A stretch of DNA of 64,000 nt from an uncultured Bacteroidales bacterium (GCA_949289565.1 CASEOO010000016.1:124001-188000), one strand, 5' to 3'. Counted from the first letter of the stretch, positions 1 through 11,325 are shown. Notes: generated from the sequence alone by a model not told the origin. Program-made: numbers and translations.

Positions 1-2278
1 TATCTGTAGTTCTGATAATCTTGTCTGCCGGCACTCCAGGTGTATACAGAAGCTCGACACCATATGTAGGATTTTCATCCTTATCAACGGCTATCATATA
101 GAAAACATAATCAACTCCGGCACTCAGATTCTGTATAACGAGTTTATTGTCCTGAGGCAAAGACTCGCCTTCAAGCATATATGTATTATAATTATCCACA
201 TACTCCAGCGATGCAAGATATGACTGCATCACAGTCACATCCTTCTCCCATCCTTGATATGCTCCATTATTGTCGAAATTCTCTTCAGACAGATTAAGAT
301 ATACCAGTTTGGATATTTCTCCTGAGACAGTATACGGAATAGCAACTGAATTCGCGCCTACCTCCGCATCACCAAGTGCAAGTGTCACAGTCGACCATGT
401 TCTTGCCTTTACATTAGCAGGAGTGGCAAGGAAAGCATATTCACCATTCTGCATCAAAGCCAATGACAGAATATATCCTTCAGTACCTGAAACGAGATTC
501 TCCGCCCTTAGCTGATATGTGCCAGGTTTTTCATAATTCTCATACAAAGCTGAAGACGTAAGAATATCCATTATAACAGCTTCTTCCGTTTCGAATTTAC
601 CATAGTCCTCTTTCGACATCCATACAGAATACAACTTATATGGTTTTATACTTGGCGTAATGTCTGCTGTTATCGAATTCACAGTGCACTCAGGCTCTGA
701 AACTGTGAGAGTAATGGAATTTCCAGAATGTATACTGAGTGTAGTTTTCTCAATATAATAGAAATCTTCGACAGTATAGTCTTTTATTTCCTTTCCATCA
801 ACAATAGGCAAAGCATAGATGACATACTCCGTATCCGGCAGCAATGATGTACCATATGACATACCAGAAAGCGTGCCTTCATACATGGCACTGGAATTAG
901 TGCCATCCCAATATCCATTTGCGGCAGCCGTAGAGATAAGTGTTTCGAAAAACGGCTCTATGCCCTCAGATACAGGGAAACATCCTCTGGCAAAATCATC
1001 CGCCCCAGTCACTTTGATGACAAGATCCATGTCATCGTAGGTGATATCTGTCGCTTCAAAAGATACATTCAGCATAGATATAGGATTAGATGACTCAATA
1101 TCAGAAACGGCAACTGAAATATCTCCATAATTTCTGGAATATTTCGCCGCCCATACTACATATGTATAGCCTGATTTCGGTTCTGACATAAGAATATCAG
1201 CAAGAGGCTTATCTGAAACATTGCCGTTTGCCTCAATATATGAAGGTGCTGAATAATTTGCAAATCCGTCAGATATAGTCTGGGCATTGAATTCATCTAT
1301 CAGCATGGCGCCATATATGAATGAACCTGAACCTGATGTGATATTGACAGTCATGTCCGATTTGTTCACGGTAAAGGTGAAATTTGAAGTTCCTATTTTG
1401 ACGAACACTTCGGATATGAAAGATTTGCCTTCAGCGGTCACACCTAATATCTTGATCGTTCCACTCTGGTCCGCATCGGCCGCATCAGCCTTAGGGGCGC
1501 GTATAGTAAGCTCTGATTTAGTAGTCTTTGCATACCATCCATATGGAACTTCTTGTACTGCAATATTAACTATGCCGTCAAGAGAAAACTCGACAGTCTT
1601 TTCTTCTCCGTCATCGAAATATTGGGTTCCAACGAGAGGATAGAAAGAGGCTGCATCTCCTCTGTACTTATTCACTTCGAGTTCGATTCCGTCAGCCAGA
1701 GTGAATATTACGGAATTCTCTTTGTTTTCTACTTTAGAGAAAATCGCGGCGTTTTCTGAATTTACGCCGAGGCCGGTCCAATTAGCGCCATCGGAAGAAA
1801 CCATCCACCCGCCATCTTCTCCCAATGCGATGGCAGGGATATCCGCTTCAAGTTTCAGTTTGTTTCCCTTGGCATCGGTGATTGGAGTCTTGACTCCACC
1901 TTCGCCTACTGTAGCCCAGTATTTGACACCGTCTTCCTCAATAAAAGAAATAACAGGAACGACTTCATTGCCTGCGGCAGGCAATTCAATAACTGTATTA
2001 TTCTCATCAGTAAGAGTAATCGTATACATGCCCGTCTCTTCATCAAGAAGGCATGAAAGGATAGTGGTCTTTCCGTCCACTATAGCCTTGAGAGCTGTGA
2101 GCTGAGCATCCATCTCTGTCTCCAAGGCTGTCAGGCGGTCATTGAGATCGGTAATCTGCTGTTTCAGTTCCGAATCATCAAACTGCTCGCAGGATGTCAT
2201 CGGCATAAGGCCGGCTCCGGCGACAAGCAAGGCGGCGGCCATATGCGCCGTCTTGCTCCAAATTTCGAGTTTTTTCAT
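1..2278 (-). CDS. DUF4988-type surface lipoprotein with Fn3-like modules (3' end outside window)
   Basis: The reading frame is open from the ATG at 2278 to the left edge, giving about 759 visible residues with no stop. The N-terminus MKKLEIWSK is followed by a hydrophobic signal segment and a lipobox ending MTSC, then the acidic EQFDDSE, which suits an outer-membrane and possibly surface lipoprotein. Next come a short heptad-like stretch (QQITDLNDRLTALETEM) and the pattern typical of DUF4988, a domain often found at the N-terminus of Bacteroidales surface proteins. The rest is repeated beta-rich modules with signatures such as PDTEYVIYA, read as Fn3-like. It is the last visible gene of the operon that starts at tlpA, 31 nt after the previous stop. 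The ligand is unknown and no catalytic motif was recognised. Confidence 0.75.
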   Translation of the reverse strand, partial: MKKLEIWSKTAHMAAALLVAGAGLMPMTSCEQFDDSELKQQITDLNDRLTALETEMDAQLTALKAIVDGKTTILSCLLDEETGMYTITLTDENNTVIELPAAGNEVVPVISFIEEDGVKYWATVGEGGVKTPITDAKGNKLKLEADIPAIALGEDGGWMVSSDGANWTGLGVNSENAAIFSKVENKENSVIFTLADGIELEVNKYRGDAASFYPLVGTQYFDDGEEKTVEFSLDGIVNIAVQEVPYGWYAKTTKSELTIRAPKADAADADQSGTIKILGVTAEGKSFISEVFVKIGTSNFTFTVNKSDMTVNITSGSGSFIYGAMLIDEFNAQTISDGFANYSAPSYIEANGNVSDKPLADILMSEPKSGYTYVVWAAKYSRNYGDISVAVSDIESSNPISMLNVSFEATDITYDDMDLVIKVTGADDFARGCFPVSEGIEPFFETLISTAAANGYWDGTNSSAMYEGTLSGMSYGTSLLPDTEYVIYALPIVDGKEIKDYTVEDFYYIEKTTLSIHSGNSITLTVSEPECTVNSITADITPSIKPYKLYSVWMSKEDYGKFETEEAVIMDILTSSALYENYEKPGTYQLRAENLVSGTEGYILSLALMQNGEYAFLATPANVKARTWSTVTLALGDAEVGANSVAIPYTVSGEISKLVYLNLSEENFDNNGAYQGWEKDVTVMQSYLASLEYVDNYNTYMLEGESLPQDNKLVIQNLSAGVDYVFYMIAVDKDENPTYGVELLYTPGVPADKIIRTTD

Positions 2279-2309
2279 AATATAAAGATCTAAAGTCCGT
2301 TATTTTCCA

Positions 2310-4634
2310 TTAAAGGAAGTCTGCAACATCATAATGAATTTCATGACCATCGTAGATGACATAAAGCAGTTCTCCGTAAACTGGGGTGCTGCCATCTGCT
2401 CCTACAGGGATGCACATCGTGATGCACGGCTCTGTGCCAGTATAAGGCATTTCTGTCATGGTATAATATGTCACCCCGCCTGTATTATTACTGTCTTCTT
2501 CAACATCACCCAATACGGCTGCACGGAGAGCCCCTATCACTTCTTCCTTGGAATATCCGTTTTCCTTGACAGTTCCATTGACCAGATCTGCAGGACTCCA
2601 TGTAACAGAAAGCTCGTTAGAGGTAGTGGCCTGCATGACAAGCATTCTGCCTACTTCCTTCACCGGATTGAATATGACTGTGAATCCGCTTCCGTCAGTA
2701 TATTTCTGCGCTGTCATCTGTACTTCCGGATTAGGGCCAGGATTCAATGCAGCTGTTGTCCCTTCATAGAGTTTAGTTTCTCCTACATTTCCGTCCCAGT
2801 CTTCAGGAGCAGCCACAAGGCTGTACAAGGTTCCAGGCACCATATCGGCATAAGTCCACTGGTCCGTAACGGTACCGTCATCGTTCAGCACTGTAGTTCC
2901 CGAAGAATTGCTTACTGGATTTCCGAGAGGGTCCGTGCCTGAAACGAGGTCATCCCAGTTGTAGAACCAGATATTGCAAAGAGGATTGCCGTATGAATCT
3001 TCCGCCTCGAAATAATACTTGATCCACTGCTCATGCGTAGTGTTTTCCCAATCAAGCTTGTCCCCTTCCAGAAGAGGATATCCCGGGACAAGGCCGCCCT
3101 GGCCACCAGCAATAGGTGCTACCACCTGCCAGTAATAGGCAGCTACATCCTCAGGATCGTACGTGAATTTCACCGTGATTCCTATCGGGCTTTCTCCATC
3201 CACGATTTCCACTTTGAAATTCCCGTTGAACTTAGACGGATCTGTAACATTCCTCGGTTTGGTTTTAAACGGCTCGGTAACATGGACATCATCCGCCTCA
3301 CCGAAGTAGTTCACGGCTATGTAGGCTATCACATATTCCGTATCAGGGAGGATATCCTTCATGTCTATCCTGTAAGCAGGGACCTCGGCACCTTCACCCT
3401 GGGCTTCCATGATGGAATCGTCATACTTGAAATTAGGATTCTGGATCACCCAGCCTTCATCCTTGAGTTCCGGGATGAGAGCTTTGCGCGCTTCCTTATC
3501 ATTTGCGAATTTGGAATCCCATTCAGCTTTGGTGTAGTGTCGGATATCCACTTCACTGGTGTACTCGTCCATATCTGCCGAGAGCCAGAATACGAGAGAA
3601 CCTATATGGTTCTGGTCCACAGTGACAGTAGCTTCGGCAATCTGGGCATTTTCAGGTATTTCCTTCACGGACACATCGGCTGTCCTGAGTTCTCCAGGTG
3701 TGCCGTTCACATCGACTGCCACTGCAGCGGCCATGGCATCGGCCGCCTGCTCTGCTGTGAGTTCTATCGGCATAGGGAAAGGATTCTCTATCCCGTCGAA
3801 CGGATAGGCATCCTGAAGCATCATGTTGCGGAGATAATCAGTGAAGGTTTTCTCTCCGAAAGCATCGATATATGCCTCTATCTCTGACTTCACGCCTGTG
3901 AATTCATAGAAAGCGGCGGCATCGGCAGACATAGGTGCATAATCCAGTATGAAACCGCCATATGCAGGCTGTATATCTATCTCAATGTCAGGATTGCCGA
4001 CCAGAGGCCTGTGAGGAGTCCTCACATAGCAGATGGACAATCCGGCCTGGGTCTGGGCATCTTTCTCGTAATATGCCAGAGCCAGAATCAGGTATTCGGC
4101 ATCCGGAACGATAGGAGGCACGAAAGTATAGCCTGCTTCAGACCATACTATCTCAATCTCGTTGTCATCCTCACCTTCGATATTATATGTAAGGTCTGCA
4201 CCGCCGACATACCCAAGTTCAGCTCCTGAGCTGCCCTCATGAAGATATGAGCGGAGGATTTCTTCGACTGCTTCTGCAGTGATTCCGGCATCCCAGTTGA
4301 GGTTGATAAGATGGTTGTAGAGACCTGAGAGAGGGAAGGCGCAAACCTTGAATGACTTCACTGCCGAACCTGGACGGCACACGAAAGTGAAATCCTTTTC
4401 TGAAAGGGAAGTCACTTCTATGGATACGCCGTCAGCGCCCTGCTCGACTACATACGGAGTCCATGCGATAGGGTATGCGACGGATGAATGATCCAGCGGA
4501 TCCGGGAATGTAGACGGGTCTGTCTGTGTTCCCCCGGGATTGTCCGGGTCGAGAGTCTCATCCTTGCATGAAGAAAGAGACAAAGCCGCGGCAGACATCG
4601 CCACCGCTAAAAGAATGTTGAAAATCTTTTTCAT
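2310..4634 (-). CDS. Large Fn3-like repeat lipoprotein
   Basis: This 774-residue protein has a clear lipoprotein signal (MKKIFNILLAVAMSAAALS, lipobox SLSSC) followed by KDETLDPD. Lys plus acidic residues directly after the Cys resembles the Bacteroidetes lipoprotein export signal, so surface display is likely. The body contains at least three beta-rich modules, each with a phrase such as PDAEYLILA, PDTEYVIAY or PGTLYSLVA, the usual strand motif of Fn3-like domains in Bacteroidales surface proteins. No enzymatic motif is visible. It lies 33 nt after the third Omp28-type gene and 31 nt before the DUF4988 gene. It resembles in style the partial lipoprotein at the right edge of the window. Confidence 0.72.
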   Translation of the reverse strand: MKKIFNILLAVAMSAAALSLSSCKDETLDPDNPGGTQTDPSTFPDPLDHSSVAYPIAWTPYVVEQGADGVSIEVTSLSEKDFTFVCRPGSAVKSFKVCAFPLSGLYNHLINLNWDAGITAEAVEEILRSYLHEGSSGAELGYVGGADLTYNIEGEDDNEIEIVWSEAGYTFVPPIVPDAEYLILALAYYEKDAQTQAGLSICYVRTPHRPLVGNPDIEIDIQPAYGGFILDYAPMSADAAAFYEFTGVKSEIEAYIDAFGEKTFTDYLRNMMLQDAYPFDGIENPFPMPIELTAEQAADAMAAAVAVDVNGTPGELRTADVSVKEIPENAQIAEATVTVDQNHIGSLVFWLSADMDEYTSEVDIRHYTKAEWDSKFANDKEARKALIPELKDEGWVIQNPNFKYDDSIMEAQGEGAEVPAYRIDMKDILPDTEYVIAYIAVNYFGEADDVHVTEPFKTKPRNVTDPSKFNGNFKVEIVDGESPIGITVKFTYDPEDVAAYYWQVVAPIAGGQGGLVPGYPLLEGDKLDWENTTHEQWIKYYFEAEDSYGNPLCNIWFYNWDDLVSGTDPLGNPVSNSSGTTVLNDDGTVTDQWTYADMVPGTLYSLVAAPEDWDGNVGETKLYEGTTAALNPGPNPEVQMTAQKYTDGSGFTVIFNPVKEVGRMLVMQATTSNELSVTWSPADLVNGTVKENGYSKEEVIGALRAAVLGDVEEDSNNTGGVTYYTMTEMPYTGTEPCITMCIPVGADGSTPVYGELLYVIYDGHEIHYDVADFL

Positions 4635-4667
4635 TGCATTGATTTATATTTATTGTTTCTTTTCGAT

Positions 4668-5708
4668 TCAATCATTGTACTGATAATCTTCTTTGCCGCC
4701 GCCCATGTCGCAGCCGAGGCAATTGTTCGCATATCCGTTTTCGTCATATGCGACTGCGCATACAGTGACATTTTCAATATTCCATGAAGGGTCGACCTGC
4801 ACGGTATACTCTTTCGTGACTTCCTGACCTGAGGCCAGCTCTCCGAAATTGTCGCCCTGCCAGCTTCCCGTGATTACAGAACGGACTACATCCCTGTGGA
4901 CATAATCATCCTCATGGCCCAAAGGAGTATCCTGACCAGCCTGTATTCTGTCTTCGACTACGAAAAGCGCCACCCTGTATGAAGAATTGACAGACGAGGT
5001 GAGCCCAACTGCCACTTCCGCTGTCTTTCCGTCTGACGAAAGTTCAGAAGAGAGCGACAGGGCGCAATGAGCCGGATATTCAGTCTTTGATGCCTGGAAC
5101 GCCGAACTCAATATCCCCCTTGAGCCTGCTTCGCGCATGTCGAAGACAAAGGACGGCAGATCCTGGCTGCCGAAATGCGAACGCATTTCTTCCGTGCCAT
5201 CGATATAGAATATGTCTTCCCCCATGCTGTTGCTGTGGAAGGCAAGGACCACTGCAGTTTCTCCCGCCATGCGTTCCGGAAGGAAATATCCGAACAGGAA
5301 ATCAGATCCGTCAGGACAGAATGTGCACTGCTGGGCCGTAAACTCCACTATGCAGTAGTTTCTTTTAAATGCAGCCACTTCACCGGAAGCAGTTATGGTG
5401 ACTGTCTCCGAAACTTCGCCCTGATATTCGGCATAAAAGCCGTAATTTCCGGGTGTCCCGGTGCTGAATGCGGCTCCGTCCAGAACAGAACCGTCAGCGA
5501 CAGATATTATGTCGGCATCGGCAGTCACGTCAGCCCCGGACATTGTGACGGCAAACGTCACAGTCTCTTTTCCGTCTGCGCTTATTTCAGTCTTGTCAGC
5601 CACGAGAACCAGGCCTTCACCGCTGTCGTCGACATTGCCCGAGCATGAAGCGAGGGCAAACAAGACAGATAGAGCAGATAGAAACTTTTGTTTATAAATC
5701 ATTCTCAT
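4668..5708 (-). CDS. Omp28-type lipoprotein with CxxCP motif (paralogue 3)
   Basis: This lipoprotein has an N-terminal Ig-like domain (phrase ADKTEISADGKETVTF) and then a thioredoxin-like domain carrying CTFCPDG, the layout of the Omp28-related outer-membrane family. The C-terminal part has VEDRIQ and YVHRDVVRSV, shared with the two neighbouring paralogues. The frame is open back to an ATG at 5759 that overlaps the upstream stop. I prefer the ATG at 5708 because AAAGGA lies 7 nt before it and it directly precedes a normal signal peptide with lipobox LFALASC. The CxxC pair suggests disulfide chemistry or a structural disulfide; the substrate is unknown. Confidence 0.75.
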   Translation of the reverse strand: MRMIYKQKFLSALSVLFALASCSGNVDDSGEGLVLVADKTEISADGKETVTFAVTMSGADVTADADIISVADGSVLDGAAFSTGTPGNYGFYAEYQGEVSETVTITASGEVAAFKRNYCIVEFTAQQCTFCPDGSDFLFGYFLPERMAGETAVVLAFHSNSMGEDIFYIDGTEEMRSHFGSQDLPSFVFDMREAGSRGILSSAFQASKTEYPAHCALSLSSELSSDGKTAEVAVGLTSSVNSSYRVALFVVEDRIQAGQDTPLGHEDDYVHRDVVRSVITGSWQGDNFGELASGQEVTKEYTVQVDPSWNIENVTVCAVAYDENGYANNCLGCDMGGGKEDYQYND

Positions 5709-5755
5709 ATCAATTCCTTTCTTACGGCCCGGCGCAATAAATCGCTGGGAACGCG

Positions 5756-6874
5756 TCATTTAACAATCTGGTAGTCTGATGAACCTGCGGCGAGCGGACA
5801 GCTGTTCACATTGTCGGCATAATACGACGAGCCGTCCTCTGTCGGGACAAGCACGGCAGCCACGACTCTCATATTCCCTGCATTCCATGCTTCAGGCAGG
5901 TCCGCGCTGTAGGTTTCTTCATATTCAGTTCCCGGATAGAGTGCTATCCTGCCGTTCAGATAGTCTCCGTATATGCCTTCTGAGAGAACGGTCCTCACTA
6001 CATTGTCATGTACATAGTCCGGGTCGTCTATCTGCGTAGCCACTATGCCATCCTCAACCAGAAATACTGCCACACGGCATCTCTGCTGGAGATTTGACTT
6101 GACTTTGACAGATACGGAGACCGAGCCCCCTGTTTCCGCCAATTCAGATGACACGGCGACTCCGCAGGACGGTTCATAAGTGTCCAGTTCCCTGTCCAGC
6201 TCTTCATCAATGACAGCCTTGACATTTGACATGGACACAACAGGCTGGTGCATGTTGAAATACAGCGCCGGCAGTGCAATGGAAGAACCGATGAATTCCG
6301 CCGCGAACTGTCTGGACTGCTGGATCGTCATAGGATCGGATCCCTGATAGTCGAGATGGAATGCGACAGGGCACAGCACCCCGGGCTTCTCAGACTCTAT
6401 GCTTTTCAGCGCGGATGTAAGATCCGGACATCCTATGCATGTAGTCGAGGTGAACTGGAATGCAAGGACTTTCTGATACCACTGTGATGTCTGGATTTCA
6501 CCTGCCGGAGAGGCTGTGACAGACACTTCATTGTCTGTGTACACAGCGCCGTCATCATAGTATCTCGCAGTGAAGGTATATGTACCCGGTGTAGTGGTCG
6601 AAAAGACATTGACACCTGCCGGAAGACGGCTCTCGTCACCATCGAAATTGTGTATGATGTTCATTTCGGGAGATGAGCTGACATCCGTCGATCCATACAT
6701 CACGCGGAAAACGACTTCCGTCCTGCCATCGGCAGGGATCGTGGTCTCACCATCCACGAATATCCGAAGCACACCTTCAGGAACCGTTTCGTCCTCGACA
6801 TGGCCGGAACAAGACATGACACCTGCGGCGAGCAAAGACAACTGTGCTATTTTTCTTATAACATTCTTCAGCAT
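5756..6874 (-). CDS. Omp28-type lipoprotein with CxxCP motif (paralogue 2)
   Basis: A 372-residue lipoprotein with signal and lipobox AAGVMSC followed by SGHVEDE. An N-terminal Ig-like domain contains IPADGRTEVVFRV. The central thioredoxin-like domain carries CIGCPDL after the strand VLAFQFTSTT. The C-terminal third contains VEDGIVA and DYVHDNVVRTVL, the motif block shared by all three paralogues here and typical of the Omp28-related family. It starts 12 nt after paralogue 1 ends, and its stop overlaps the upstream alternative ATG of paralogue 3, so the three are translated from one transcript. Function is unknown; an envelope redox or adhesion role is inference from the motif and neighbours. 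Confidence 0.75.
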   Translation of the reverse strand: MLKNVIRKIAQLSLLAAGVMSCSGHVEDETVPEGVLRIFVDGETTIPADGRTEVVFRVMYGSTDVSSSPEMNIIHNFDGDESRLPAGVNVFSTTTPGTYTFTARYYDDGAVYTDNEVSVTASPAGEIQTSQWYQKVLAFQFTSTTCIGCPDLTSALKSIESEKPGVLCPVAFHLDYQGSDPMTIQQSRQFAAEFIGSSIALPALYFNMHQPVVSMSNVKAVIDEELDRELDTYEPSCGVAVSSELAETGGSVSVSVKVKSNLQQRCRVAVFLVEDGIVATQIDDPDYVHDNVVRTVLSEGIYGDYLNGRIALYPGTEYEETYSADLPEAWNAGNMRVVAAVLVPTEDGSSYYADNVNSCPLAAGSSDYQIVK

Positions 6875-6886
6875 CAGCGGAAAAGA

Positions 6887-8017
6887 TTATTCATTGTAAA
6901 CGTATCCGACATTCCCGTTCACAGGGCATGACACTATATTGTCCACCATGGTGGTGCCGTCCTCAAGCCTCTTCAGCGCATAAATGACTATGCTGCAGTT
7001 CTCCGGCTGCTCCGACAGTTCTTTGCTGGACAGGGTGAAAGTCTTTTCGTGTTCTTCGCCGGCAGCCACCTGCACTGCATTTCCGGAAGCATAAGAACAG
7101 AAGTCGCCTGAATAGCTCCTGACTATGTGATTGTAAATCCCGTCAGGCTCTGCTCCGTCAGCGACATACTGGTCGTCTAAAAGCAATGCACATTCGATAT
7201 CGTAAGTCCCGCCTTTGTCCGACATCAGCGTGGCCTTTGCTGAAAGTTTTCCGTCTTCGCACACTGACTCCACCTTGATTCCGCATGTGGCCGGATAGTT
7301 TCTGCGCTGCTCATTGACAGCCTTTTCGATAGCCGAGCTGGCTCTCTCCGTAAAAGGTGTATTGAGGTTGATGACCAGCGAAGGGAATCCCATTAGCTCG
7401 AATGTAGAAAGCATCAGATTTCCCAGGTCGACATCCGCCCCTGAGTCCACTACAATGTGGAAAGGGTCATTGCCCGAGCCATTGCCGTGGCATGCAAGAA
7501 TGACCGTATGCTCTTTGATGGCATCCTCCATTCCGTTGAGACCGGCAGTCATGGACGGACAATTCGTACACCATGTCCCTGTCATTTTGTAGATAGCCAC
7601 ATTCCTGTGGAATTTCTCATACTTGCTGCGGTTCACGGCAGTGACTGTGACGGTGTTCTCGCTCGGCGTTCCCTTGTAGACTCCCCTGAAAACATATGTG
7701 CCGTTGTCGAAAGCGGAATAAGTTTTCTGCAGACGGTCAAGATATTCATATTCACCGTTTTCATATTCTATCCTGAAATACACTCCGGAAGGATCGGACA
7801 GCGTAAGATCTATTCCGTTCTCGTCCTTGAGAGTGAAGGTCACTACCGAAGTCGCATCCGCCTCCAGCTCCGTCTTGTCCACGGAGACAGTATAGATGCC
7901 GTCGGCCGTATCGGTTCCGCTTCCATTGCCGTTCCCTTCTGGATCGACATTGCCTGTACATGAAAGCGCCGCTGCAGCGGAAAGCACCGCTGCCGATATC
8001 ATATAAATCTTTTTCAT
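6887..8017 (-). CDS. Omp28-type lipoprotein with CxxCP motif (paralogue 1)
   Basis: A 376-residue lipoprotein with signal MKKIYMISAAVLSAAAALSC followed by TGNVDPEG. The N-terminal Ig-like domain has VDKTELEADATSVVTF. The thioredoxin-like domain has CTNCPSM after VAIYKMTGTW. The C-terminal block YNHIVRSYSGDF corresponds to YVHDNVVRTVL in the paralogues but is more diverged, so this is the most distinct of the three copies. It lies 29 nt after the DUF6029 gene. Family membership (Omp28-related) rests on the shared architecture; biochemical function is not established. Confidence 0.75.
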   Translation of the reverse strand: MKKIYMISAAVLSAAAALSCTGNVDPEGNGNGSGTDTADGIYTVSVDKTELEADATSVVTFTLKDENGIDLTLSDPSGVYFRIEYENGEYEYLDRLQKTYSAFDNGTYVFRGVYKGTPSENTVTVTAVNRSKYEKFHRNVAIYKMTGTWCTNCPSMTAGLNGMEDAIKEHTVILACHGNGSGNDPFHIVVDSGADVDLGNLMLSTFELMGFPSLVINLNTPFTERASSAIEKAVNEQRRNYPATCGIKVESVCEDGKLSAKATLMSDKGGTYDIECALLLDDQYVADGAEPDGIYNHIVRSYSGDFCSYASGNAVQVAAGEEHEKTFTLSSKELSEQPENCSIVIYALKRLEDGTTMVDNIVSCPVNGNVGYVYNE

Positions 8018-8046
8018 GTATTGAAATACGTTTTACTGTTAAACAA

Positions 8047-9690
8047 TCAGAACGAAGTCGTTATCGTGAAGTTGGCTCCCGTATACGCCGGTATGGCGCG
8101 GCAGACACCTCCGGAGCAGATATATCCGGCCTTGTAGCGTCCGTATGCCAGTGAAAATCTGGTTCTGGACTTGGCATAGCTGACCCCTACATTGTAGTAA
8201 TGTGTCCCTGTGTCGCCGTGATTTACCATGTCGCTGCCGTAGATGCTCCAGCGCGGAGCGAAGTTGATCTCCAGCAAGGCTGCCATCCAGTCTTTGTGAT
8301 CCTCACGGGTAGTAAGGTACTGGAGTTCGAGTCTGGTAGAGAATTTGGACGTGAACTTGTAAAGCAGGTCTGCCACGACGATGTTTGAAAGCCAGGTGGT
8401 CTTGTTCGCTCCGTAGCTCGGGTTGTATTCCTGCATGGACCACAGGAGAGTCATCTTGAATTTCCTGGTCCACTGCTTCTCCACATCGACACTCAAGTCC
8501 CTGTAGAGCAGATTCCCGGCTTTGGCTGTTCCTTCTTCAGCAAGAGTGTAATAAGTAGAGAAATTCGCATGAAGCTTTGTGCCCCTCTTGCCTCCCAGAG
8601 CTGTTCCCCTGCGGAAATTGTAGAACACGTCCACCTGCCCGCCGATTTCTCCGCTGTTCACGAATCTTCCGTTCAGATCGCCTGTACGAGATGTGTACGG
8701 ATGGAGAGTGGTGAGCAGATACGTGTATTGGGTGCACATGGCCGGGACATAATTAAGCATGTTCGAGGTAGATGTATTGCCGGTAAGTATTTTCGAATCC
8801 ATCCATTCGAGACGCCTTGCCGTCACATTCAAGCCGAGGCCATGGCCATTGTAGCCAATTTCCACAAGCTGTGCGTTTCCCTTTTTCCCGAGATATGCAG
8901 GGTCATCGGACGACTGGATATAAGGATTGTTGTAATACTTGTTTCCGGCATCGACATATTCGCCTTTGAAGAAAAAGCCTGAGGTCTCGAAATTAAGCCT
9001 TCCGGACCAGCCGAAATTATTGGCGGCGGCGCCGGACTCCTCCAGATCTATCGACGGATGCTCATATCTGTCAAGGACTGAACCCTCCAGGGCAAGATAT
9101 ACTCCATCCCAGCCTATGAGGTTTGAAACCGCAAAGCTCAGATCCGCTCCTTTCACCTGGGTATCAGTATACTCCATTCCGAATCTCGGCATTCCCCAGA
9201 GTGCCTTGAAAGAAACGATATCCCTGTAACTGTAAGTAAATCTTGCTCCGAAGAGGGCATTGTTCAGTCCCAAAGCCCTGTCTTCCCAGCTTCTGAAGAG
9301 CAGGCCGCTGCCGAACTGGTCATAGAACGAACCTGCAGTGATGCCGAAGTTTTCATCCTGCCATCCGACATACAGATTCGTCAGGCCTATTTTTTCAAGC
9401 TCCACCGGATAACCCACCAGAGCCGGCTCGTAAGCCTCGACCTGCATTCCTGCAGAAAACTTTCCTCTGTAATAGTCGAGTTTCAGATAATTGTTCGAGC
9501 CCCAATGCTCCTCGGGCACGGTCGCATTGGTCCTGGCATCATTGCGATACCATGTAGTATTCGTCTCGAAACTGCCTTTCAGATACCCTTTGGGAGCATT
9601 TCCGTCCTTTTCAGGTGCTGCTGACGCAGCAATGCACGCCGACACCCCGGCAAGGAGTGTCAGGCAGATGACTTTCACCGCCTTTTCCAT
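8047..9690 (-). CDS. DUF6029-type outer-membrane protein
   Basis: A 547-residue exported protein. A signal peptide (MEKAVKVICLTLLAGVSA to about residue 24) precedes KGYLKGSFETNTTWYRND. The remainder is dense in alternating aromatic and polar strands such as YTYLLTTLHPY and HYYNVGVSYAKSRTRFSLAYGR, and it ends in F (TTSF), the usual end of an outer-membrane beta barrel. The overall pattern matches the Bacteroidales DUF6029 family. It follows tlpA by 14 nt and precedes three Omp28-type lipoproteins. I infer it is the membrane component of this cluster; there is no direct evidence for transport or anchoring. Confidence 0.7.
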   Translation of the reverse strand: MEKAVKVICLTLLAGVSACIAASAAPEKDGNAPKGYLKGSFETNTTWYRNDARTNATVPEEHWGSNNYLKLDYYRGKFSAGMQVEAYEPALVGYPVELEKIGLTNLYVGWQDENFGITAGSFYDQFGSGLLFRSWEDRALGLNNALFGARFTYSYRDIVSFKALWGMPRFGMEYTDTQVKGADLSFAVSNLIGWDGVYLALEGSVLDRYEHPSIDLEESGAAANNFGWSGRLNFETSGFFFKGEYVDAGNKYYNNPYIQSSDDPAYLGKKGNAQLVEIGYNGHGLGLNVTARRLEWMDSKILTGNTSTSNMLNYVPAMCTQYTYLLTTLHPYTSRTGDLNGRFVNSGEIGGQVDVFYNFRRGTALGGKRGTKLHANFSTYYTLAEEGTAKAGNLLYRDLSVDVEKQWTRKFKMTLLWSMQEYNPSYGANKTTWLSNIVVADLLYKFTSKFSTRLELQYLTTREDHKDWMAALLEINFAPRWSIYGSDMVNHGDTGTHYYNVGVSYAKSRTRFSLAYGRYKAGYICSGGVCRAIPAYTGANFTITTSF

Positions 9691-9704
9691 CTCGCAGGAT
9701 ACCT

Positions 9705-10190
9705 TTATTCCAGACCTTTGATGACTTCGATGAGCTCCTCTTCATTTCCGGGAACATATCCGGTATGGGAATAGACGATCTTCCCATCCCCGTCCAGGAC
9801 AAATACCTGCGGGGTGACAGAGACGCTCATGGCTCTCATGAACTCCTGGTTCGTATCGTAAAGGTTGATGAAATCGTACCATCCGTGGCCTTCAGCCAGC
9901 GAACGCGCCTTAGTGGTGAAACGGCTGTCATCGGTAGATACTGCCACTACCCTGAAATCAGCTTCATCCAGCCAGTCAGGAAGCACGTCGTTGATGGCGT
10001 CAAGTTCGCGGATGCACGGTTTGCAGATAGTCGACCAGAAAGAGATGATCATAGGTGTCTTCTCTTCCAGAAGCGACGATGTATTGAAGGCGTCGCCCTT
10101 GTGGTCTTCTATGGTGACAGACGGCATCTGCGCCATAGCCGACACGGACAGAAGGCCCAGTGCCAGTGAAAGAATCAGAAATTTTTTCAT
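9705..10190 (-). CDS. TlpA-like periplasmic thioredoxin
   Basis: A 161-residue protein with a cleavable signal (MKKFLILSLALGLLSVSAMA) and an AhpC/TSA-TlpA-type thioredoxin fold. It has the active-site phrase ISFWSTICKPC (CxxC) around residues 50-60 and the cis-Pro strand VTPQVFVLD. The strand pattern FRVVAVSTDD is typical of TlpA/ResA proteins, which reduce disulfides in envelope proteins. It is the first gene of the long operon that continues with DUF6029 and three Omp28-type CxxCP proteins. Those neighbours are plausible partners or substrates, but this is inferred from context only. No promoter motif lies between its ATG and the leader terminator 43 nt upstream. Confidence 0.85.
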   Translation of the reverse strand: MKKFLILSLALGLLSVSAMAQMPSVTIEDHKGDAFNTSSLLEEKTPMIISFWSTICKPCIRELDAINDVLPDWLDEADFRVVAVSTDDSRFTTKARSLAEGHGWYDFINLYDTNQEFMRAMSVSVTPQVFVLDGDGKIVYSHTGYVPGNEEELIEVIKGLE

Positions 10191-10231
10191 ACTTAATATA
10201 CGGGTTCTTAAAATTACGGGCTGCGGAAGAA

Positions 10232-10453
10232 TAAAAAAAGGACCTGGTATGTATAACGATACCAGGTCCTGTATTAGATGGATACAATGCTGCGTCAGTA
10301 TTCCATACTACGGAATTCCATACAGCTGCTGAAGATACGGTATACCCCCCCCCAATGATATTTGAGGTGCAAAGACCAGGGTATGATGATATCTTCAGTT
10401 CCATATTTCTATTTTCTGTCCAGACTTCCGGACAATGATTTCCAATTCGTATT
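10232..10453 (-). ncRNA. Candidate structured leader or small RNA upstream of tlpA
   Basis: This stretch lies between a canonical promoter (10459-10489) and the terminator at 10233-10270, so a transcript of about 220 nt is expected. It has strong helix potential: a 9-bp perfect helix between 10390-10398 and 10329-10337, an inner 5-bp helix (10380-10384 with 10342-10346), a 6-bp closing helix (10451-10456 with 10311-10316) and a small hairpin with a 5-bp stem near 10417-10435. It contains a run of nine G residues (C on the plus strand, 10345-10353). It could be a stand-alone small RNA (6S-like shape is one possibility) or an attenuator leader. I did not recognise a known riboswitch core. Confidence 0.5.
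10233..10270 (-). terminator. Strong intrinsic terminator in front of tlpA
   Basis: On the minus strand a perfect 12-bp stem (10259-10270 with 10239-10250) closes an 8-nt loop and is followed by seven T residues (10239-10233). It ends the leader that starts near 10452. It lies only 43 nt before the tlpA start codon, so the operon promoter must read through it, or tlpA needs a start site I cannot see. Confidence 0.85.
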
Positions 10454-10458
10454 CCGGG

Positions 10459-10489
10459 CAAAAGTACTAATTAAATTTTTGTCTGCAAA
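10459..10489 (-). promoter_or_regulatory. Bacteroidales-type promoter for the leader and tlpA operon
   Basis: On the minus strand TTTG (10489-10486) and TACTTTTG (10466-10459) are separated by 19 nt, matching the TTTG / TAnnTTTG consensus. The start point should be near 10452. A 9-bp inverted repeat (10471-10479 with 10487-10495) overlaps the upstream element. Confidence 0.75.
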
Positions 10490-10524
10490 ATTTAAAAGAA
10501 TTAATTCAACCTAATTTCAATTCA

Positions 10525-11325
10525 TCAGCCGCGCCTGCGGTACTGAAGAGGCGTGATGCCGGTATGGCGGCGAAAAAACTGCACAAAGACTGAGGGACTG
10601 GAAAAATTCAGGTCTTCAGATATTTCCAGCACTGTCATGCCGGTGGTCTTGAGCATGGACTTGGATTCGCGGAGCAGATTCATGGCGATCCATTCAGGAA
10701 CTGAACGGCCGCTAAGTTTCCGTATGGCTCCGGACAAGTATTTCGGAGTGCGGTTCAGCTTGTCAGCATAAAAGCCCACAGTATGCTCCTGACGGCAATG
10801 CTTGGCAAGCAACTTGAAAAAGTCGTCTGTAAGAGTCTCCTGCTTAGGCTTGGGCATATCCGTGCTTTCTTCGGACATTGACCTGAAATGGTCACATACT
10901 TCCAGAATCATCGCATAAAGTATGGAGCGGGATATTTCGAGGCGGTACGCATTTGTCCCGCATGGCTTCTGCATGTCCAGAAGAGCATAGAATGCCTGCA
11001 TTCGCGCCGACCTGGAAGAATCCAGCACAGATACAGGATATCTGAGAGACAGATTTATAACATCTATATCCACCGGGCTGGGAAAATCCAGTATGTCGTC
11101 CAGCGATATAGACACCGACCTTTCAAGATAGTCATCCGATCTGGACACCGCCTCTGCAGGGCTGGTCAGAAAATGAACCATGAGGGAGCCTGCCTCGACC
11201 TGACAGTCTGTATCTCCTGTTCTGAGGACTGCTGTTCCTCTGCAGCAAAGAGTCAATGAGAGGCCTTGAAATTTCTCATTTTCTCTATTTTTCTTCATAA
11301 ATGCGACCTTTTCTACATTTTTCAT
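10525..11325 (-). CDS. AraC-family transcriptional regulator
   Basis: A 266-residue protein with a C-terminal AraC-type double helix-turn-helix (about residues 165-262). The first helix region is YADKLNRTPKYLSGAIRKLSG and the second includes VLEISEDLNFSSPSVFVQFFRRHTGITPLQYR, the classic family signature. The N-terminal half is a beta-rich segment like a cupin-type sensor, with no recognised ligand motif. A TAAGTTTG element at 11330-11337 lies very close to the ATG at 11325, so the ATG at 11298 (MKKNREN) may be the real start. It sits directly upstream of the tlpA operon in the same direction, so control of that operon is plausible but unproven. Confidence 0.85.
   Translation of the reverse strand: MKNVEKVAFMKKNRENEKFQGLSLTLCCRGTAVLRTGDTDCQVEAGSLMVHFLTSPAEAVSRSDDYLERSVSISLDDILDFPSPVDIDVINLSLRYPVSVLDSSRSARMQAFYALLDMQKPCGTNAYRLEISRSILYAMILEVCDHFRSMSEESTDMPKPKQETLTDDFFKLLAKHCRQEHTVGFYADKLNRTPKYLSGAIRKLSGRSVPEWIAMNLLRESKSMLKTTGMTVLEISEDLNFSSPSVFVQFFRRHTGITPLQYRRRG

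Follow-up and report, generated by a model that had tools for sequence, protein, structure and literature searches.

A conserved TlpA-DUF6029-Omp28 operon of Bacteroidota and a proposed thiol-disulfide relay across the outer membrane

Known reductive pathways of the DsbD-TlpA/ResA/CcmG type end in the periplasm, in cytochrome c maturation or at DsbC. The Gram-negative thiol-disulfide pathways known to us all stop in that compartment, and we know of no described bacterial system in which thiols transfer reducing power through the outer membrane. Nor do we know of a described answer to how surface thioredoxins such as HBP35 of P. gingivalis are recharged, or of an electron source or DUF6029 partner described for HBP35. 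HBP35 is located at the cell surface, and as a recombinant protein it reduces insulin via C48/C51; it also binds hemin, and its deletion slows growth in hemin-depleted medium (PMC2907840). According to work cited in that paper (PMC2907840), HBP35 complements an E. coli dsbA mutant. In MtrCAB, electrons cross the outer membrane by way of a barrel, an inner carrier and a surface lipoprotein carrier, and MtrA is reported to lie mostly within the MtrB porin (PMC12076491).

The locus described here lies at the beginning of a 64,000-nucleotide stretch (the window) from an uncultured Bacteroidales bacterium (GCA_949289565.1, CASEOO010000016.1:124001-188000). The gene order on the minus strand is TlpA, DUF6029, three Omp28 lipoproteins with CxxCP motifs and two large lipoproteins. 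With all genes on one strand, intergenic gaps of 14, 29, 12, -4, 33 and 31 bp in operon order and Pfam matches for its members, the tightly spaced TlpA-DUF6029-Omp28-lipoprotein operon recognised in the initial annotation is real. Its extent had been drawn to the window edge and had to be corrected: the last gene, encoding a DUF4988 lipoprotein of 894 aa in full (1..2278, minus strand), runs past the window start to contig position 123594. Four consecutive genes with thiol motifs had also been counted; the motifs are present, but the four genes are not consecutive, being interrupted by DUF6029. Since DUF6029 has its own invariant pair, C525-x4-C530, there are five consecutive genes with conserved cysteine pairs. 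The grouping is not due to chance: DUF6029 occurs once in the source genome, both Omp28 domains that a genome-wide Pfam search detected fall in this operon, and the neighbourhood recurs throughout the phylum. The likeness to MtrCAB would be one of working only, with thiols in place of hemes, and no sequence relationship was found or is claimed; the partners of the barrel in the window are CxxC thioredoxin-fold proteins and not multi-heme cytochromes, and the set does not belong to the porin-cytochrome conduits.

The TlpA-family thioredoxin (9705..10190, minus strand; 161 aa) was matched by Pfam Redoxin with E=2e-17 and 63.9 bits against a cut-off of 26.6. Its active site, CKPC at residues 56-59, stands in the context FWSTICKPC and has the CxPC form of TlpA/ResA thioredoxins; in the first locus set, the 87 adjacent TlpAs have a CxxC without exception. 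The protein has a signal peptide without a lipobox and is probably soluble in the periplasm. A ResA/TlpA-type protein with CxxC, together with a DsbD in some of the clusters, recalls the DsbD-TlpA/ResA/CcmG pathways; the difference is that the proposed barrel and surface thioredoxins would extend the chain outward.

DUF6029 (8047..9690, minus strand; 547 aa) is an outer-membrane beta-barrel by its Pfam match and its model, with 24 predicted strands. The match to PF19494 is full-length (E=4e-182, 606.9 bits, positions 15-538 of 538). An alignment across many families showed that C525 and C530, close to the C-terminal end, are invariant; they stand in the motif CxGGVCRxxP, and the codons of the pair (CSGGVC) are located at 8101..8118. 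The Cx4C pair was found in 104 of 105 homologues, a set that a few genomes enter twice, and the sole exception ends at a contig end. It was found again in 40/40 DUF6029 proteins of a second sample, consisting of 40 loci drawn evenly over the phylum with very distant members included. The consensus C-x-[GSN]-G-[VI]-C holds in nearly all homologues, and 63 of the 105 proteins have no further cysteine beyond residue 25. An invariant Cx4C of equal spacing, C136/C141, is also present in the N-terminal part of the Bacteroidota DsbD. Cross-strand disulfides of the type predicted for DUF6029 are often redox-active; the pair could also be a plain structural disulfide.

The AlphaFold2 model of DUF6029 (mean pLDDT 94; 24 barrel strands by count) is barrel throughout after the signal peptide, with no plug domain. 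A sequence search of solved structures gave weak OmpA-type matches, which were uninformative. By structure, the top solved matches by Z and rmsd were the 24-stranded usher pores FimD and PapC (FimD Z 18.7, rmsd 4.5, 378 residues); 18-stranded porins scored about 1-2 Z units lower, and AlgE was also among the matches. DUF6029 thus resembles FimD and PapC in its predicted 24-stranded barrel, but at about 10% identity it lacks the usher plug and the N- and C-terminal domains, and no pilus genes were recognised nearby. With no usher domains and DUF6029 as the only Pfam finding, the protein does not belong to the fimbrial ushers.

Loops leading from odd to even strands have a mean length of 14.8 residues, and those from even to odd strands 4.1. 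The cysteines lie on a hairpin of two strands, 522-526 and 529-533, in the loop preceding the last strand, which is predicted to be the last extracellular loop. Given the long odd-even and short even-odd loops, together with standard outer-membrane topology, the Cx4C hairpin is predicted to be extracellular, a placement that depends on strand parity and loop lengths; from the strand limits, C525 and C530 would oppose each other across a two-residue turn. Of the 22 invariant residues of DUF6029, 20 map to extracellular loops or to the outward halves of strands, and the loops 123-145 (conservation 0.83) and 520-535 (0.74) are far more conserved than the other extracellular loops (0.15-0.51).

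Downstream of DUF6029, the minus strand encodes the Omp28-family lipoproteins a (6887..8017; 376 aa, CTNCP), b (5756..6874; 372 aa, CIGCP) and c (4668..5759; 363 aa from the listed start, with a lipobox behind an internal ATG, CTFCP). All three were matched by Pfam Omp28 (PF11551), with E=1e-24, 2e-24 and 9e-17 and domain scores of 87.7, 86.8 and 61.8 bits, above the cut-off of 34.9. Scores against NCBIfam lipoprot_Omp28 (NF033782) were 80.6, 61.2 and 29.0 bits, below the curated cut-off of 150 bits, and by this comparison the three proteins are relatives, not members, of that subfamily. The CxxCP cysteines singled out in the initial annotation are conserved within the family: in an alignment of 59 Omp28 proteins, no column is invariant apart from the CxxC pair and the cysteine of the lipobox. 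The model of lipoprotein b (pLDDT 92) shows an Ig-like domain followed by a thioredoxin-fold unit of the HBP35/Omp28 kind, whose closest solved structure is P. gingivalis HBP35 (PDB 5Y1A; Z 24.9, 225 residues; profile E=4.5e-20). C146 and C149 stand at the start of helix 149-162, as the CxxC does in the thioredoxin fold, and thioredoxin chains were also matched by the profile. HBP35 thus resembles Omp28 in its thioredoxin-fold domain with a CxxC, on a surface-located protein; unlike the Omp28 lipoproteins, it is T9SS cargo and binds hemin. Of these proteins, HBP35 is the one with demonstrated disulfide reductase activity (PMC2907840). In some lineages, a T9SS sorting domain replaces the lipobox in the Omp28 adjacent to DUF6029. 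P. gingivalis Omp28 (PF11551, PDB 2R2C), which gave the family its name, matches through its C-terminal domain (Z 9.4, E=2.7e-18); since the fragment aligns from profile position 173 on, the CxxC half is missing from the solved structure. To our knowledge, no function has been assigned to this protein. Three loci (L041, L050 and L061) carry three Omp28 units fused in one protein of 848-852 aa with three CxxCP motifs.

Of the genes that the initial annotation had read as one functional set, TlpA, DUF6029 and Omp28 keep together in related genomes. Of 144 loci, 110 have a co-directional TlpA as the gene immediately before DUF6029, with a median gap of 12 bp, and 4 have a divergent one. Among the 30 remaining loci, TlpA had been missed or clipped by the gene caller in at least 5, and in 5 others the DUF6029 is a second copy located behind a TlpA-DUF6029 pair. 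A single gene intervenes in two, the two proteins are fused in one, and contig ends account for some. A neighbouring TlpA is truly lacking in about 15 DUF6029 loci. In 117/144 loci, DUF6029 has an Omp28 protein encoded no more than 1.5 kb away, most often directly downstream (64) or divergent beyond TlpA (35). Records with the trio of TlpA, DUF6029 and Omp28, in several gene orders, carry the labels Bacteroidales, Flavobacteriaceae, Sphingobacteriales and others; in Flavobacterium species, the Omp28 that accompanies TlpA-DUF6029 is divergent in sequence. Among 296 Bacteroidota genomes, DUF6029 and Omp28 occur together in 58, DUF6029 alone in 22, Omp28 alone in 4 and neither of them in 212; DUF6029 is therefore present in 58/62 Omp28-positive against 22/234 Omp28-negative genomes (Fisher p = 4e-38 with kinship ignored, the relatedness of the genomes inflating the co-occurrence statistics). 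Where both could be paired on one contig, they were at most 3 kb apart in 47 of 48 genomes.

Gene fusion also links TlpA to the barrel. Locus L133 encodes, in a single ORF of 667 aa (L133:8939-10942), a TlpA domain (21-152, CVPC) that is preceded by a signal peptide and followed by a complete DUF6029 barrel (158-667, CVGGVC), with a linker of about 10 residues between the two and both cysteine motifs retained, and the same fusion, 671 aa in length, was found in a second species of that genus. The TlpA domain there must act at the periplasmic end of the barrel or within it. In one clade, whose DUF6029 is distant and in which Pfam detects no Omp28, a CxxC thioredoxin-fold protein stands beside TlpA-DUF6029 in 20/20 loci, while the TlpA CKPC and the barrel CTSGIC are each present in all but one. 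The replacing proteins are thioredoxins of the ResA/AhpC type, mostly with CPHC; by simple patterns, some begin with a lipobox-like sequence, some end in a T9SS-like tail and some show neither feature; a T9SS sorting domain was confirmed by database scan in the partners of L168 and L048 (2/2 scanned; one of them among the 20 clade loci). That a different surface-type thioredoxin takes over from Omp28 indicates that it is the role of a surface-type thioredoxin-fold protein that is conserved, and not the family.

DsbD was found inside the cluster, in varied gene orders, in L036, L039, L070, L071 (partial), L074 and L129, and as a convergent neighbour in L044. Seven DsbD-linked loci are an excess over a rough chance expectation of 0.5-1.5; L070, L071 and L074 may share ancestry, and such loci are a minority. 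With a strict cut-off, 36 of 54 DUF6029 genomes have one DsbD, 17 none of this type and one (G270) two, with one of the two copies directly behind DUF6029. In the genome of the window, DsbD is encoded elsewhere (C8). This linkage points to a reductive pathway.

The genes and motifs, their conservation and linkage, the fusion, the replacement and the predicted folds are observations, and a thiol relay spanning the outer membrane accounts for all of them most simply. We consider the best explanation, with somewhat better than even confidence, to be that the operon core forms a trans-outer-membrane thiol-disulfide relay running from DsbD through TlpA and DUF6029 to a surface thioredoxin. DsbD in the inner membrane would keep periplasmic TlpA reduced, and TlpA would dock at or in the periplasmic side of the wide 24-stranded barrel. 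The extracellular Cx4C hairpin of DUF6029 would then hand the dithiol to surface-anchored thioredoxin-fold proteins of the Omp28/HBP35 family, which in turn would act as reductants of extracellular disulfides or of another oxidised target there. The window operon would encode this surface reductase in three copies, with the two large surface lipoproteins as lineage-specific accessories. The envelope or surface redox relay suggested in the initial annotation gains support from the Cx4C of DUF6029, the fusion, the Omp28 replacement, the clustered DsbD and the HBP35 match; we infer the physical contacts, the flow of electrons through the barrel, its direction and its target. As HBP35 complements a dsbA mutant, an exported oxidoreductase can work as an oxidant too, and the direction in particular is to be read in this light.

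A more general form of the relay seems to us evenly balanced between right and wrong: a thiol electron conduit in which the barrel holds a periplasmic thioredoxin inside and feeds interchangeable surface thioredoxins via its extracellular Cx4C, as a dithiol counterpart of MtrCAB that is widespread, and perhaps ancestral, in Bacteroidota. No description of such a module was found in the open-access literature on DUF6029, on TlpA with Omp28 or on thiol transfer across the outer membrane, the last being mostly mitochondrial. If the relay is real, Bacteroidota use protein thiols to bring reducing power to the cell surface and control disulfides outside the cell, and DUF6029 and Omp28, two widespread families without a function, would gain one. 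As a speculation, gut and oral Bacteroidota could thereby reduce disulfide-rich extracellular proteins.

The main rival to the relay is a structural Cx4C with TlpA maturing the barrel. TlpA would be a dedicated isomerase or reductase for barrel and lipoproteins, and no electrons would cross the membrane. A pair in a tight hairpin may form a stable disulfide, and the adjacency and fusion of TlpA suit a dedicated folding helper, but a helper covalently tied to a single completed barrel would have no turnover. The surface-sorted CxxC thioredoxin-fold partner, and its replacement where Omp28 is absent, are also left unexplained, and we regard this explanation as unlikely. Rather improbable in our judgement is that DUF6029 is an usher-like or Slam-like translocator of the Omp28-type lipoproteins, with TlpA keeping the cargo reduced in passage. 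Such a role would agree with FimD and PapC as closest solved structures and with the Omp28 lipoproteins that adjoin DUF6029 in most loci; however, the partner in several lineages is T9SS cargo with its own export route, gene orders vary, and the conserved residues are extracellular and surround a cysteine pair, for which a translocation pore has no need.

Hemin binding by HBP35 and the slowed growth of its deletion mutant in hemin-depleted medium (PMC2907840) raise the further idea of heme or metal acquisition, in which Omp28/HBP35 would bind hemin, DUF6029 would be the channel and the thiols would reduce metal or heme. We hold this to be very improbable: no recurring heme-uptake gene was recognised among the neighbours, most of which are unannotated, and DUF6029, having no plug domain in the model and no Pfam match other than its own, is not a TonB-dependent receptor. 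Export of a polymer through DUF6029 as a polysaccharide secretion porin is scarcely credible, since the constant neighbours are thioredoxins and not polymer-synthesis genes and the invariant cysteine pair would be left without a role; the idea comes from a remote likeness to Wzi barrels, homologues of which show HHpred similarity to DUF6029 (PMC9603273), and is in keeping with AlgE among the structural matches.

The large Fn3-like lipoproteins were also considered as members of the thiol relay by way of conserved cysteines. This reading was rejected: the 774-aa protein (2310..4634, minus strand), an operon partner without a conserved CxxC, and the 894-aa protein, matched by Pfam DUF4988 with E=8e-13, were seen only in this and near lineages, and their only invariant cysteine is that of the lipobox. 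Being lineage-specific and without a conserved CxxC, they fall outside the core of the module as accessories, and may be targets, adhesins or unrelated passengers.

Behind the DUF4988 lipoprotein, a 128-bp gap with a terminator-like hairpin precedes the next cluster, a SusC/SusD pair, a subtilase and a lipocalin-like protein of peptide-uptake-like composition (L002:4051-11466 = contig C16:116051-123466). This cluster is probably a separate unit. SusCD and subtilase were considered as part of the same function but were not counted in the core, because the hairpin separates them from the operon and other DUF6029 operons, those of the genus among them, have no SusCD directly behind (in the genus, behind the large lipoproteins).

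Upstream of TlpA, a putative Bacteroidetes-type operon promoter (TTTG, 19 bases, TACTTTTG; 10459..10490, minus strand) was assigned by its match to the Bacteroidetes-type consensus. The leader (10191-10524, minus strand) contains a terminator-like hairpin with T7 (10233..10269), some 43 bp upstream of the start codon of TlpA, and a G9 run at about 10343-10355; hairpin and run are candidates for an attenuator or a phase-variable element. An Rfam gathering search of the window gave no match, so the hairpin belongs to no known RNA family. Directly upstream, on the same strand, an AraC-family regulator gene (10525-11325) is a candidate local regulator.

Within the genus of the window, DUF6029 was found in only about 10 of 37 genomes, many of them incomplete; it is accessory here and widespread in the phylum. 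In L041, L050, L059, L061 and L063, DUF6029 is duplicated, with two large lipoproteins between the copies. In most loci of some distant lineages, TlpA is preceded by a protein of about 240 aa with a T9SS-like C-terminal sequence (L148:8135-8848, L152:8046-8774), a possible further member of the module. A version of the operon with a DUF6029 67% identical to that of the window was found in a cultured and named strain, Phocaeicola coprocola DSM 17136 (L049), which may point to horizontal transfer.
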